Of a stretch of DNA of 32,049 nt, positions 8,861 through 13,895 are shown one piece after another. The notes beneath the pieces are model-generated. The model ran no database searches. It was not told the origin of the DNA and saw only the letters and a list, made by a program, of their open reading frames with translations. The stretch is from contig MGYT01000010.1 in the NCBI GenBank assembly GCA_001801865.1, forward strand, positions 1 to 32,049, in the 5' to 3' direction. The position numbers and the translations under genes were made by a program. Each line of letters begins with the position of its first letter. Within the stretch, counting starts at the first letter, position 1. Source of the stretch: Gammaproteobacteria bacterium RIFCSPLOWO2_02_FULL_61_13 (GTDB lineage Bacteria > Pseudomonadota > Gammaproteobacteria > Eutrophobiales > Eutrophobiaceae).

Positions 8861-9799
8861 ATGAGTCGTTCCGTCGCCCGTTTGCCGGGAGACAATTCCG
8901 GTCTCGACTCCGCCGGATTCCCGCTGCCGCGGATCCCGGACCGTGCCCGGCTGACTCTCTATGCGCAACTGGCCCGTCTGGACCGGCCCATTGGCGCGCT
9001 GCTGCTGCTGTGGCCGACACTGTGGGCGCTCTGGCTTGCCGCCAATGGCACGCCCAGCCTGCACTTGCTGGTGGTGTTTGTGTTGGGCGTGTTCCTTACC
9101 CGTTCGGGGGGCTGCGTCCTCAATGATTATGCCGATCGCGATCTGGATGGCGGGGTCGATCGCACGCGTGACCGGCCGCTGGCCACGGGCCGGGTGGCGC
9201 CGGGGGAGGCCCTGGTGCTGGCCGCGTTGCTGTTCGGCCTTGCGTTCCTGCTGGTGCTGACCACGAACCGGCTCACGGTGCTGCTGTCGTTTGCGGGCGC
9301 CGTGCTGGCCGGCATCTATCCGTTCATGAAGCGGATCACCTGGGTGCCGCAATTCTTTCTTGGCCTGGCGTTCAGCTGGGGCATCCCCATGGCATTCGCA
9401 GCGCAGACCGGCGGCGTGCCGCCGGTGGCCTGGTTGCTGTATATGGCCAACATACTTTGGGCCATGGTTTACGACACCATCTACGCCATGGTGGATCGGA
9501 ACGATGACTTGCGTCTGGGCGTTCGATCCACAGCCATCCTGTTCGATGATGCCGACACCACCATCATCGGCATCATGCAGATAATGATGCTGGCGCTGCT
9601 TACGCTGGTCGGATACCGGTTGCAGCTGGGCTTCTATTATTATCTGGGCATTATCCTTGCCGGCGCCCAGTTTTTCGCCCATCAGATCGTGATCCGTGAT
9701 CGCTCCCGCGACGCGTGCTTCCGGGCCTTCATGCTCAACAACTGGGTCGGGCTGACGATATTTGCCGGCATTGTGCTGGCCATGGGGATGGTTGCATGA
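8861..9799 (+). CDS. ubiA: 4-hydroxybenzoate octaprenyltransferase UbiA
   Basis: Integral inner-membrane prenyltransferase that joins the polyprenyl tail to 4-hydroxybenzoate in ubiquinone synthesis. About eight or nine hydrophobic segments follow a polar N-terminus. The two magnesium-diphosphate aspartate motifs are NDYADRDLDG and YDTIYAMVDRNDD. RPIGALLLLWPTLWALW and YPFMKR match the family closely. At 312 aa it is longer than E. coli (290) because of about 25 extra N-terminal residues, so a later start cannot be excluded, but no internal Met lies before the first helix. The usual chorismate lyase partner ubiC is not adjacent. A TAAAAT hexamer lies at 8793-8798 in the recG-ubiA gap. Its stop overlaps the next start (ATGA). 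Confidence 0.96.
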   Translation: MSRSVARLPGDNSGLDSAGFPLPRIPDRARLTLYAQLARLDRPIGALLLLWPTLWALWLAANGTPSLHLLVVFVLGVFLTRSGGCVLNDYADRDLDGGVDRTRDRPLATGRVAPGEALVLAALLFGLAFLLVLTTNRLTVLLSFAGAVLAGIYPFMKRITWVPQFFLGLAFSWGIPMAFAAQTGGVPPVAWLLYMANILWAMVYDTIYAMVDRNDDLRLGVRSTAILFDDADTTIIGIMQIMMLALLTLVGYRLQLGFYYYLGIILAGAQFFAHQIVIRDRSRDACFRAFMLNNWVGLTIFAGIVLAMGMVA

Positions 9800-10686
9800 A
9801 ACGCGAGGCATTGGCCGTGATCCTGCTGTCCGCCGCGGTCGGCGTTGCGGGCGCGGACACGAAGGTTACCGGCGAGTGCGACCGCATTGCGCAGAAACTG
9901 GCCAGCATCGACCAGAGCGAGTGCCTGAACCGGGCGCTGGCAATCACACGCGGTGAGTCGGTGCAGGGCGCGCCCATCCTGCTCAAGGAGTACCTGCCGA
10001 TGGAGAATCGACAGCCGCGGGGACGGGTGTTGCTCGTCGGCGGCATTCATGGCGACGAATATTCCTCGGTCAGCATTGTCTTCAAATGGATGAGCATTCT
10101 GGATGAGCACCACACCGGGCTGTTTCACTGGCGCATCGTGCCGCTGCTGAACCCTGATGGATTGCTGCGCCAGGAGGCCCGGCGCATGAACGCCCACGGC
10201 GTGGACCTGAACCGGAATTTTCCCATGCCGGGATGGGAGGATTTGGCGCCCCGTTACTGGGTCGAGCAGACCAACAGCAGTCCGCGTTACTTCCCGGGCG
10301 AGAAACCCCTGAGCGAGCCCGAGTCGCGCTGGCTCGTGGATGAGATCAATGGCTTCTCACCGGACGTGATTGTCGCGGTGCACGCACCCCACGGCGTCGT
10401 GGACTACGATGGCCCGCGCAGCGGCCCGCGCAAGCTCGGTCGCCTGTATCTGAACCTGTTGGGGACGTTTCCGGGATCGCTGGGGAATTACGCCGGCGTG
10501 CAACGGCGCATACCCGTGGTCACGGTGGAATTGCCATATGCCGGCACCATGCCCAGGCCGGCGGAGGTTGCGGAGATGTGGCGCGACCTGGTGCGTTGGC
10601 TTTCAAAAAACACGCCGGCGCAAGGCCGACTGGTGGATGAACCCGGCTTCGGGGAGAAGCCGGATCAGGTGACCGATCCCTCATAG
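9796..10686 (+). CDS. Secreted M14 zinc carboxypeptidase/amidase (murein-peptide type)
   Basis: The hydrophobic N-terminus MKREALAVILLSAAVGVAGA reads as a signal peptide, so the enzyme is probably periplasmic. The M14 zinc site is complete: H85 and E88 in GGIHGDEYS and H196 in VAVHAPHG. DLNRNFP (about 138-143) supplies the substrate-carboxylate-binding Arg/Asn, and E245 in VTVELP is the catalytic acid/base. Closest recognisable types are the MpaA murein-peptide amidase and the Csd4/Pgp1 peptidoglycan carboxypeptidases. MpaA itself is cytoplasmic, which favours a peptidoglycan-trimming role here. It starts in the ubiA stop codon (ATGA overlap), and its 3' end overlaps the convergent L,D-transpeptidase gene by 22 bp. 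Exact substrate is inference. Confidence 0.85.
   Translation: MKREALAVILLSAAVGVAGADTKVTGECDRIAQKLASIDQSECLNRALAITRGESVQGAPILLKEYLPMENRQPRGRVLLVGGIHGDEYSSVSIVFKWMSILDEHHTGLFHWRIVPLLNPDGLLRQEARRMNAHGVDLNRNFPMPGWEDLAPRYWVEQTNSSPRYFPGEKPLSEPESRWLVDEINGFSPDVIVAVHAPHGVVDYDGPRSGPRKLGRLYLNLLGTFPGSLGNYAGVQRRIPVVTVELPYAGTMPRPAEVAEMWRDLVRWLSKNTPAQGRLVDEPGFGEKPDQVTDPS
10643..10663 (-). terminator. Hairpin just past the L,D-transpeptidase stop, inside the M14 gene
   Basis: CCGGCTTC-GGGGA-GAAGCCGG is a perfect 8-bp stem starting one base after the minus-strand stop (10665-10667). No U-tract follows on the minus strand, so termination efficiency is uncertain. It lies within codons of the M14 gene, so it is also constrained as coding sequence. 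Confidence 0.4.
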
Positions 10687-11870
10687 AGGATGCGCCAGCG
10701 GCCGTCGGCCTCCTGCCGCCAGTACTGGCGCTTGACGAAGCGCCGGTGATTTCGATCGCTGCTGTAATCCTGCTGAAAGGTGACGACCAGCAAGGCCTGC
10801 TCGCCCGGGTAAAGAAACATGCTCTGTCCCGAGATGCCCACGCGGATAAACTGCTTCCCGCTGTTGACCTTGCGCTTGTAGGCCACCCACCTTTCATAGT
10901 CCATACCGAGGCCGGAGTAGGACGGTGAGTAGTGATCCAGGTACTGCTCCGTGTCACGGCTCTCCCAGTCCTTGCGCCATTGCTCCACCACGATGGCCAG
11001 CCGCGCCTGGCGCTGCTCCCACTGGCTGCGTGAGATCCATTCAACGTCCTCGGCGAGAATGACCGGTGTTTCACCGGGCGCGATGTACTGCTTTATGCTC
11101 TCCAGGTCCGCATTGCTGAGGATGACGCAACCATCACTGTCCCGTGGCGGGCGGCTGAAGGTGTTGCTCGGCGTGCCGTGCAGCCAGATGCCGTAACCGG
11201 TTCGCCCCCGGCGTTGATCCCAGGCATTGGGATAGTCAATCGGGAAGGCGCCGGAGCCGTAGAAGTCCGGCAGCTTTTCCGGGGAGATTGTGCCGGTGAC
11301 GAAGTAGACCCCAACCGGCGTCTTCTGGTCGCCTTGCGCCAGCTTGCCGGTACCGTTTTTGCCGATCGTGGCATAAAAGTCACGCACCAGATGCGGCACA
11401 CCGCCACGGTTCTCATACAAATAAAGCCGGGATGTGGTCATGTTCACCAGCACCACGTAGCCCTGCTGATCACTCAGTTTGACCAGCGCGGACGGGATCT
11501 GATCCATGGGTGGCGGCGCGCGGTAATGGCGCAATCGCGCCCGCGCCTCGTCACGCAGGGCGTTGACCTGCTGATAAGTGGCAAATGGCACGGCGCCGAA
11601 TTCCGAGATTGGCGCCGTCCTGGATAACAGCAGATCCGCGTACACCATCTGCGCGAGCCGGAAGTCGGGATTGGCGGCCAGCAACCGCCGCAGGTCCGTC
11701 ATGGCGGCATCGATGTGGCTGCCACTGACGTTTTGCAGCGCCTGCACCAGGATCGCCTCCTGCCCCGGATCCGGTTCATGCAACCGGGCATGGCTGGCAA
11801 TAATGTTCCCGGCGGCTACGGATGCAGACCACTGTGACAACAAAAGCAGAGAAATGACAAGGCTGCGCAT
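10665..11870 (-). CDS. YkuD L,D-transpeptidase/carboxypeptidase with C-terminal NTF2-like (Csd6-type) domain
   Basis: Signal peptide MRSLVISLLLLSQWSASVAA. A helical N-terminal region (about 30-115) precedes the YkuD catalytic domain (about 135-275): YVVLVNMTTSRLYLYE, GDQKTPVGVYFV, and the active-site pair H231 (WLHGTPSN) and C248 (SDGCVILSN). Residues about 288-401 form an NTF2/SnoaL-like module (VVEQWRKDWESRDTEQYLDHYS) ending WRQEADGRWRILYEG. This arrangement matches Helicobacter Csd6, which was shown to act as an L,D-carboxypeptidase in cell-shape control. Whether this one cross-links or trims peptidoglycan cannot be read from sequence. It follows the TPR-NTF2 gene by 18 bp with a GGAG site upstream, so the pair is an operon, convergent with the M14 gene. 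Confidence 0.88.
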   Translation of the reverse strand: MRSLVISLLLLSQWSASVAAGNIIASHARLHEPDPGQEAILVQALQNVSGSHIDAAMTDLRRLLAANPDFRLAQMVYADLLLSRTAPISEFGAVPFATYQQVNALRDEARARLRHYRAPPPMDQIPSALVKLSDQQGYVVLVNMTTSRLYLYENRGGVPHLVRDFYATIGKNGTGKLAQGDQKTPVGVYFVTGTISPEKLPDFYGSGAFPIDYPNAWDQRRGRTGYGIWLHGTPSNTFSRPPRDSDGCVILSNADLESIKQYIAPGETPVILAEDVEWISRSQWEQRQARLAIVVEQWRKDWESRDTEQYLDHYSPSYSGLGMDYERWVAYKRKVNSGKQFIRVGISGQSMFLYPGEQALLVVTFQQDYSSDRNHRRFVKRQYWRQEADGRWRILYEGSVT

Positions 11871-11888
11871 GATGGTGATGTCTCCGGA

Positions 11889-12959
11889 TCAGCGCACTGT
11901 TTCTTCAACAATCTTCCAGTCCGCGCCAACCTTCTTCATGATCAGGATCTTGCGCACGTCATCGCTGAAGGCATCGGACTGGTAGTGCTGGTCGAATGAA
12001 ATTTGCGCGTGTTCCGGCCCATGTTCAACAACCTTCATGCTGGCCAGATCCACCCGGATAAAACTTGACTGCTGCAGCCGCGCGCGACGAGTTTGTTCCC
12101 ATTGCGCGCGGGAAGTACCGTCCGCAGGTGCAAACTCGGCGCCATAGGCGGCGAGGTAGGCCGCTACATCCCGTTCCGACCAGACCTTGGCCCAGGATTC
12201 CACTGCGGCGCGCAGCTCCGGCTCGGACGAAACCTGCGCGGGCACCGGCGCGGGTTTTTCCGTGACCGGTTCAGGCTCGGGCGCCGTGTCCACGGCAACA
12301 GGTTGCGGGGCTGAAACCGGCTGCGCTGGTTGTGGTTGCGGCTGCGGCTGCAGTTGTGCCTGCGGTTGTGGTTGTGCTGGAGCCGGCGCGGCAACACCGC
12401 CTGCTGGCTGCCCTGGATTGGTCGGCGCGGCCGCTGCCAGCGCCGTCTTGCCTGCGCCATTATTGGACGCGGGGACCGGGAACAGATCGTCAATCATCGC
12501 CAGCTTGGCCTTGGCGGAACTGTTGGCCTCGTCCAGTTGCAGCGCGTGATTGTAGGCCTGACTGGCCATCTTGGCGTAGATATCGCCGAGATTTTCATGG
12601 GCCGTGGCATAACTGGGATGGGTATTGATGGCCATTTGCAACGCCTTTTGTGCGGCTTCGAAATCGCCACGCGCGGCATGCACCACGGCCAGGTTGTTGA
12701 ATGGCTCCGGCAGCTCGGGATGTTCCTCGGTGATGTGCTGAAATATTTCGGCCGCCTGGTCGAGCCGATTCATGCGTGCCAATACCAGTCCCTTGAGAAA
12801 TTGCAGGGTCACATCGGACTTGTTCTGCGCCAAATCAACCTCGACCTGGTCCAGGGCCGGTTGCAACTTGCCGTCGGCAATCAATGCCTGAACGTCGGCA
12901 GCTGCGCCGTGGGTGGCCACCATCCAGAACGCAAGCGCAACTGCAAAAATAACTCTCAC
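11889..12959 (-). CDS. Periplasmic TPR protein with Pro/Gln-rich linker and C-terminal NTF2-like domain
   Basis: Not a named family that I recognise, but the domains are clear. The GTG at 12959 (GGAG Shine-Dalgarno 8 bp upstream) gives a signal peptide RVIFAVALAFWMVATHGAAA and 356 aa; the track start at 13034 would put 25 polar residues in front. TPR repeats occupy about 25-160 (FLKGLVLARMNRLDQAAEIF, FNNLAVVHAARGDFEAAQKAL, AHENLGDIYAKMA). A low-complexity linker made of PQPQ/AQLQPQ runs to about 245. The last 110 residues (AVESWAKVWSERDVAAYLAAYG ... DWKIVEETV) resemble the NTF2-like tail of the downstream L,D-transpeptidase. A scaffold or partner role for that enzyme is inferred from this shared module and the 18-bp spacing. 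Confidence 0.82.
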   Translation of the reverse strand: MRVIFAVALAFWMVATHGAAADVQALIADGKLQPALDQVEVDLAQNKSDVTLQFLKGLVLARMNRLDQAAEIFQHITEEHPELPEPFNNLAVVHAARGDFEAAQKALQMAINTHPSYATAHENLGDIYAKMASQAYNHALQLDEANSSAKAKLAMIDDLFPVPASNNGAGKTALAAAAPTNPGQPAGGVAAPAPAQPQPQAQLQPQPQPQPAQPVSAPQPVAVDTAPEPEPVTEKPAPVPAQVSSEPELRAAVESWAKVWSERDVAAYLAAYGAEFAPADGTSRAQWEQTRRARLQQSSFIRVDLASMKVVEHGPEHAQISFDQHYQSDAFSDDVRKILIMKKVGADWKIVEETVR

Positions 12960-13046
12960 ACGGATTTCTCCACGGCGTGTTTGAACCGCTTTCCCCGCGG
13001 CATCGTTACCGGCAGGGACAGGTGGCAACGGCACACCCCCTGCATT

Positions 13047-13895
13047 TTATGGGGCCGACTGGTCCAAGGCAATTTCGCTGCATGCCACCGGCACGGAACC
13101 GAACCGGGACGGGAAGCCCGTATACATCTCTTGTAATACCGGATCCTCCTTTGGCAAACGCACATCGACCCAGTGAATGCGCTGCACATTCGGATAGGGC
13201 ACAACTACCGGCTGGAACCCCTGTTCACGCAACTGCCGCAGGCGCTCATTTACCTGCGATTGCGAGGAAAACAGCCCCAAAGAGACTGCATTGGCGAGAT
13301 TGCCGCGATCAATGAGACGATAGTCCTGGATACCCTTTTTCGCCAGCGTATCCAACACGGAATCGACGCCCTGCCGCGACTGCTGTGGAGACAGGTAGAC
13401 CCAGAACAGGCTTCGATCCGCGTCTTCGCCGACGCGGCTGCGCAGCGGGATCAGGCGCACCCGGAACCAATCCGCGAGCCAGATAGCGTGTTTTTCCTCC
13501 GGCAAGGGCCCGAATGAGAAGCAGGAGTATTCTTCGACACCCGCAACCCCGGCACCCGATGCAGTGCCAGGCAAATCCAGATCCGGCAGCTGATTCACCA
13601 ACTCATCCGGCCCGGCGCCAGTACCGGCCTGGATCTCCGCCGGCACACTTGTTTCCGTCTGCAAACCCGGGTCATTTACCGCCTGTGCCGCCGGCTCGAA
13701 GTCGAGTTGCCCTTCCAGTTCCTCCCGCGCTGCAGGCAATTGTGCAAGTTCACGCAACAACTTGAGTTCTCCGACGCGGGCCGGCAGCGTCAGCGCCTCG
13801 GACTGGTTCGCGCGTGCCGTGCGGGTATCCGCATCAACCTGCCAGCCATAATGCACGAGGTTCAGTGCCAGCAGACACAGTGCCACCCAGCGCAT
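13047..13895 (-). CDS. Membrane-anchored SPOR-like domain protein
   Basis: The ATG at 13895 gives an N-terminal hydrophobic segment (MRWVALCLLALNLVHYGW) that anchors or exports the protein, then a charged, Pro/Glu-rich stretch. The C-terminal region (about 165-260) carries YSCFSFGPL followed by DYRLIDRGNLANAVSLGLFSS and ERLRQLREQGFQPVVV, the pattern of SPOR domains, which bind denuded septal glycan. Length is 282 aa. The track start at 14027 lies inside coaX in another frame and was rejected. The ATG is one base after the coaX stop, so it is co-transcribed with birA-coaX. Placement just upstream of the TPR and L,D-transpeptidase genes agrees with an envelope role. The precise function is unknown. 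Confidence 0.78.
   Translation of the reverse strand: MRWVALCLLALNLVHYGWQVDADTRTARANQSEALTLPARVGELKLLRELAQLPAAREELEGQLDFEPAAQAVNDPGLQTETSVPAEIQAGTGAGPDELVNQLPDLDLPGTASGAGVAGVEEYSCFSFGPLPEEKHAIWLADWFRVRLIPLRSRVGEDADRSLFWVYLSPQQSRQGVDSVLDTLAKKGIQDYRLIDRGNLANAVSLGLFSSQSQVNERLRQLREQGFQPVVVPYPNVQRIHWVDVRLPKEDPVLQEMYTGFPSRFGSVPVACSEIALDQSAP

Follow-up and report, generated by a model that had tools for sequence, protein, structure and literature searches.

A probable periplasmic stem-peptide trimming module in which a Csd6/Bd1075-like YkuD-NTF2 enzyme is paired with a TPR-NTF2 protein

LD-carboxypeptidases that carry an NTF2-like domain are known to set cell shape (PMC8938487, PMC8038945). Helicobacter and Bdellovibrio owe their curved form to wall-trimming enzymes of this kind. 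The NTF2 domain of Bd1075 from Bdellovibrio bacteriovorus (PDB 7o21) targets this enzyme to the convex face, but what directs Bd1075 to a single side was stated to be unknown (PMC8938487). In Pgp2 of Campylobacter jejuni, the corresponding pocket binds peptidoglycan and is required for shape (PMC8038945), whereas for the pocket of Csd6 from Helicobacter pylori the suggested ligand is pseudaminic acid (PMC4599014).

In the window (the whole stretch of 32,049 nucleotides that was analysed), four open reading frames for an M14 peptidase, a YkuD-NTF2 enzyme, a TPR-NTF2 protein and a SPOR-domain protein were located where the original prediction had placed them, as confirmed by an ORF check and Pfam. 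The gene for the exported, MpaA-like M14 peptidase (9796..10686, + strand) is convergent with that for the exported YkuD-NTF2 enzyme (10665..11870, - strand), with a 22-bp overlap of their 3' ends. The gene for the exported TPR-NTF2 partner (11889..12959, - strand) stops 18 bp before the start of the YkuD gene; for its own start, the GTG at 12959, which gives a signal peptide, is likelier than 13034. The SPOR-domain protein is encoded at 13047..13895 (- strand). A scan for promoters and terminators yielded signals that were not above chance.

Pfam matches of the enzyme comprised YkuD (8.1e-20; catalytic domain at 11058..11459, - strand) and Cds6_C (2.6e-26; NTF2-like domain, Y type, at 10680..10991, - strand). 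Together with the invariance of H231 and C248 in an alignment of 26 homologs, these matches bore out the predicted combination of a YkuD active site and a C-terminal NTF2-like domain. The best PDB relatives of the enzyme, by sequence as well as by fold, were Bd1075, Csd6, and Pgp2, and its predicted structure matched Bd1075 with a TM-score of 0.88-0.91 (by target length). K176, Y204, and W229, which by alignment correspond to K107, Y133, and W158 of Csd6, were invariant among 26 diverse homologs; in Csd6 these are residues that tell LD-carboxypeptidases apart (PMC10653827). An Arg two positions after the catalytic Cys (C+2), which is present in LD-transpeptidases and missing from LD-carboxypeptidases (PMC8263019), was found in 0 of 154 distinct enzyme homologs. 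Based on the three invariant residues and the absence of this Arg, the enzyme is predicted to be an LD-carboxypeptidase that trims tetrapeptides to tripeptides, and the earlier description of the enzyme as Csd6-like agrees with both its nearest relatives and its conserved residues.

It is very improbable that the enzyme is instead a DpaA-like amidase, which would free covalently bound outer-membrane proteins from peptidoglycan. DpaA-like proteins likewise lack the transpeptidase Arg (PMC8263019), and the enzyme weakly matched the NCBIfam model LdtF/DpaA/YafK, with 21.2 bits against an equivalog cut-off of 365. However, sequence and fold scores were far better for LD-carboxypeptidases, and the homologs aligned here all retain both aromatic residues of the D-Ala pocket, Tyr and Trp, the second of which is Met in DpaA (PMC10653827). 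A TPR fold for the N-terminus of the enzyme was considered but not adopted, as a profile comparison gave it a probability of 20%.

Loci were gathered in two independent ways, through the Cds6_C family in relatives of the window, its class and its phylum and through the enzyme in named genomes. In this collection, from which partner-less lineages far from both the domain and the enzyme escape, 141 of 154 distinct YkuD enzymes were immediately preceded by a partner gene in the same orientation, at a median gap of -4 bases. Several of the remaining 13 were situated at contig ends or had miscalled starts; no partner gene occurred near the enzyme in L085, L100, L104, L105, and L116. The pair was present in more than 20 families in the sample of the host's class, and named hosts include Nitrosovibrio, Methyloversatilis, Azonexus, Pseudothauera, and Gallionella. 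The proposal of a gammaproteobacterial counterpart of the Helicobacter system stands for a Csd6-like enzyme with a partner but is too narrow, since the pair also occurs in Betaproteobacteria and in a further class of this phylum. The module is real, old, and widespread. Of the gene group expected to be conserved in relatives, the pair is kept, but M14 is frequent rather than universal and SPOR falls outside the core.

Pfam matches of the partner consisted of TPR repeats (12534..12872, - strand) and Cds6_C (1.3e-17; 64.5 bits, over the Pfam gathering score of 27), the latter at 11901..12215 (- strand; T type, with Arg replacing the pocket Lys257). The best solved fold match of its predicted model was Bd1075 (109 columns, 1.5 A rmsd). 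N89 and N123, one repeat apart in the TPR region, were invariant in 43 partners, and the pattern was frequent in the wider set. Asparagines of such spacing hold the peptide backbone in O-GlcNAc transferase, and by analogy the TPR groove of the partner may bind peptides. No description of a TPR-NTF2 partner was found in the open-access papers searched, in line with the original statement that no system with such a paired protein was known; the partner thus appears new to the literature.

Both C-terminal domains belong to Cds6_C, the Pfam family built on Csd6. Their sharing of a fold had been set beforehand as a test of the prediction, and this sharing holds: besides the common family, Bd1075 was the best solved match of both models. 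Of the Pgp2 pocket residues, W225, Y237, and K307 were kept in 146, 144, and 148, respectively, of the 149 domains from enzymes, and Y233 in 129; none of the 132 domains from partners lacked any of these four. At the position of K257, 144 of the 149 enzyme domains have Lys and 130 of the 132 partner domains have Arg. A single tree of this short domain, with a local support of 0.74 for the split, parted 145 enzyme from 130 partner NTF2 domains without error (275/275). Full separation of the two types and retention of the pocket in both indicate that the pair is old and that enzyme and partner probably both bind the wall; most simply, the tree reflects a single divergence of the two domains, which would then have been inherited side by side.

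The original prediction had the TPR protein recruit the enzyme by direct NTF2-NTF2 contact. Such contact would be consistent with the strict pairing and gene order, with the homology of the two domains, and with the often oligomeric or dimeric nature of NTF2 folds, CaMKII hubs being among the fold matches of the enzyme. However, retention of the Pgp2 peptidoglycan-binding residues in both domains fits at least equally well with each protein binding the wall. Moreover, in L106 and L119 the NTF2 domain of the enzyme is eroded and that of the partner retained, whereas in L107 and L121 the partner lacks NTF2, yet is still paired with an enzyme that retains its own. One NTF2 domain per pair can therefore suffice, and NTF2-NTF2 contact cannot be needed in these four loci and is not required everywhere. 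As a general mechanism, it is considered unlikely. YkuD enzymes that have a second NTF2 domain and lack a TPR partner (L091:5675-6928, L096:5692-6966) were rejected as a Rosetta stone fusion proving contact, because the tree groups both of their domains with the enzyme type.

Elsewhere, Cds6_C was found fused to a SurA-like isomerase (L240:4364-6088) and to a TpsB/ShlB-type outer-membrane protein (L083:733-2844), and a protein of 838 residues carries it in tandem (L045:7206-9722). In one genome from outside the host's class but within its phylum, the gene for an M14 ortholog overlaps that for an NTF2-SPOR protein (L238:4288-6629), which gives M14 an NTF2-bearing neighbour of its own. Occurrence of Cds6_C on SurA-like, TpsB-type, and SPOR proteins fits a general periplasmic targeting module.

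The M14 protein matched Pfam Peptidase_M14 (4.6e-13) and has a signal peptide. Its residues H85, E88, H196, E245, R130, and N139-R140 were invariant in 16 orthologs, which confirmed the predicted exported peptidase with complete zinc and catalytic residues. Two further cysteines, C28 and C43, are invariant in the family and precede the catalytic domain; a possible disulfide would fit the periplasm. The nearest solved relatives are MpaA proteins (PDB 5hxd, 4axv), whose target bond the M14 protein is also predicted to cut; its score of 80.6 bits missed the MpaA NCBIfam equivalog cut-off of 157. The DL-carboxypeptidase Csd4 has a QxxE...H metal motif, shared with Pgp1, and extra domains (PMC4220969), whereas the protein studied here is a single MpaA-type domain with an HxxE...H motif (H85, E88, H196). 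Because the peptidase matches MpaA in metal site as well as in size, it was not filed as a true Csd4, contrary to what had been proposed. MpaA is a cytoplasmic murein tripeptide amidase that recycles murein peptides; the M14 protein differs from it by its signal peptide, the two invariant cysteines and the missed cut-off. It is predicted to cut the D-Glu-mDAP bond and, by analogy with Csd4 and Pgp1, would convert tripeptides to dipeptides, probably one step after the enzyme. The proposed Csd4-like order of the two cuts is supported at the level of predicted activities.

Among 369 genomes of the class, M14 orthologs occurred together with Cds6_C in 32 and without it in 5, Cds6_C occurred without M14 in 25, and both were absent from 307 (Fisher 2e-25, in a test that treats genomes as unrelated). 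M14 was convergent to the pair in all 18 pair-bearing genomes fetched from the host's family and absent from four of four members of this family without the pair. In seven genomes (G057, G062, G131, G177, G194, G237, G287) it was far from the pair or on another contig, so that the link is not one of adjacency alone. M14 was not found beside betaproteobacterial pairs. In many lineages, M14 is part of the module.

In the host's family, the cassette genes are located between ubiA and coaX-birA, and the gene for the membrane-anchored SPOR protein (Pfam SPOR, 4.1e-07) abuts coaX-birA. SPOR was rejected as a core part, as it is kept within this family and in L095 and does not stand beside the pair elsewhere. 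Its gene, which had been counted as part of the cassette, is probably a mere neighbour belonging to the coaX-birA group. A bactofilin was encoded near the cassette in L086, L093, L105, L113, L125, L126, and L135; several of these loci also encode an SH3 membrane protein. At L105:8196-9438, a YkuD-NTF2 gene without TPR partner has bactofilin and an SH3 coiled-coil membrane protein beside it, and L086, L125, and L135 have similar neighbours. As a marker of the pair, bactofilin was uninformative (238/369 genomes of the class). Because it is so common and because, in C. jejuni, the pathway of bactofilin is distinct from that of Pgp2 (PMC10151779), it is a lead only.

The gene order in the host's family, the recycling role of MpaA as nearest M14 relative, and the failure of the common bactofilin to mark the pair would also fit general wall turnover or recycling, with no role in shape or placement and with neighbours that form a housekeeping cluster. 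This possibility is regarded as doubtful: outside the host's family the pair occurs without ubiA, coaX, and birA (L050), the proteins are exported, and the known NTF2-bearing LD-carboxypeptidases act on shape.

The favoured reading, with a probability of roughly 0.6, is a periplasmic stem-peptide trimming module that consists of the enzyme, a wall-binding partner with a TPR groove and, as next enzyme, M14. The YkuD-NTF2 enzyme would strip D-Ala4 from tetrapeptides to leave tripeptides. The NTF2 pockets of enzyme and partner would both hold peptidoglycan, bringing the two proteins onto the same wall, and the TPR groove of the partner may hold a further protein, or the enzyme itself, and so set where or when trimming occurs. 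Where present, the exported M14 peptidase would convert tripeptides to dipeptides, as Csd4 and Pgp1 do. A role of the module in controlling cell curvature is speculative. More tentatively, and with the odds rather against it, the partner may be a dedicated wall reader that docks the LD-carboxypeptidase at chosen sites, its TPR groove linking it to a positioning system, possibly bactofilin, a near neighbour in several lineages. If true, this would explain the asymmetric placement of LD-carboxypeptidases that carry NTF2. Being strictly paired with the enzyme, sharing its wall-binding domain and having a groove for protein binding, the partner is a candidate placing factor in other proteobacteria; cultivable genera that have it include Methyloversatilis, Azonexus, and Nitrosovibrio.

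Among described systems, Bd1075 combines YkuD and NTF2 as the enzyme does and is its nearest solved relative by sequence and fold, as well as the nearest solved fold for the NTF2 domain of the partner; it was, however, described as monocistronic, and neither an M14 gene nor a TPR-NTF2 protein was named alongside it (PMC8938487). H. pylori resembles the present system in that an NTF2-bearing LD-carboxypeptidase, Csd6, is followed by an M14 peptidase, Csd4, cutting D-Glu-mDAP, but no TPR-NTF2 partner has been reported. Pgp2 and Pgp1 likewise trim in two steps, and enzyme and partner both retain the peptidoglycan-binding pocket residues of Pgp2, but again no such partner has been reported (PMC8038945, PMC10151779). 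AHA0618 of Aeromonas caviae is a gammaproteobacterial YkuD protein that has been compared with Csd6, but it is far smaller, lacks the extra domains of Csd6, and was not seen to change muropeptides (PMC4398505). With a partner for which no description was found, the module is a variant of the Csd6/Bd1075 kind.
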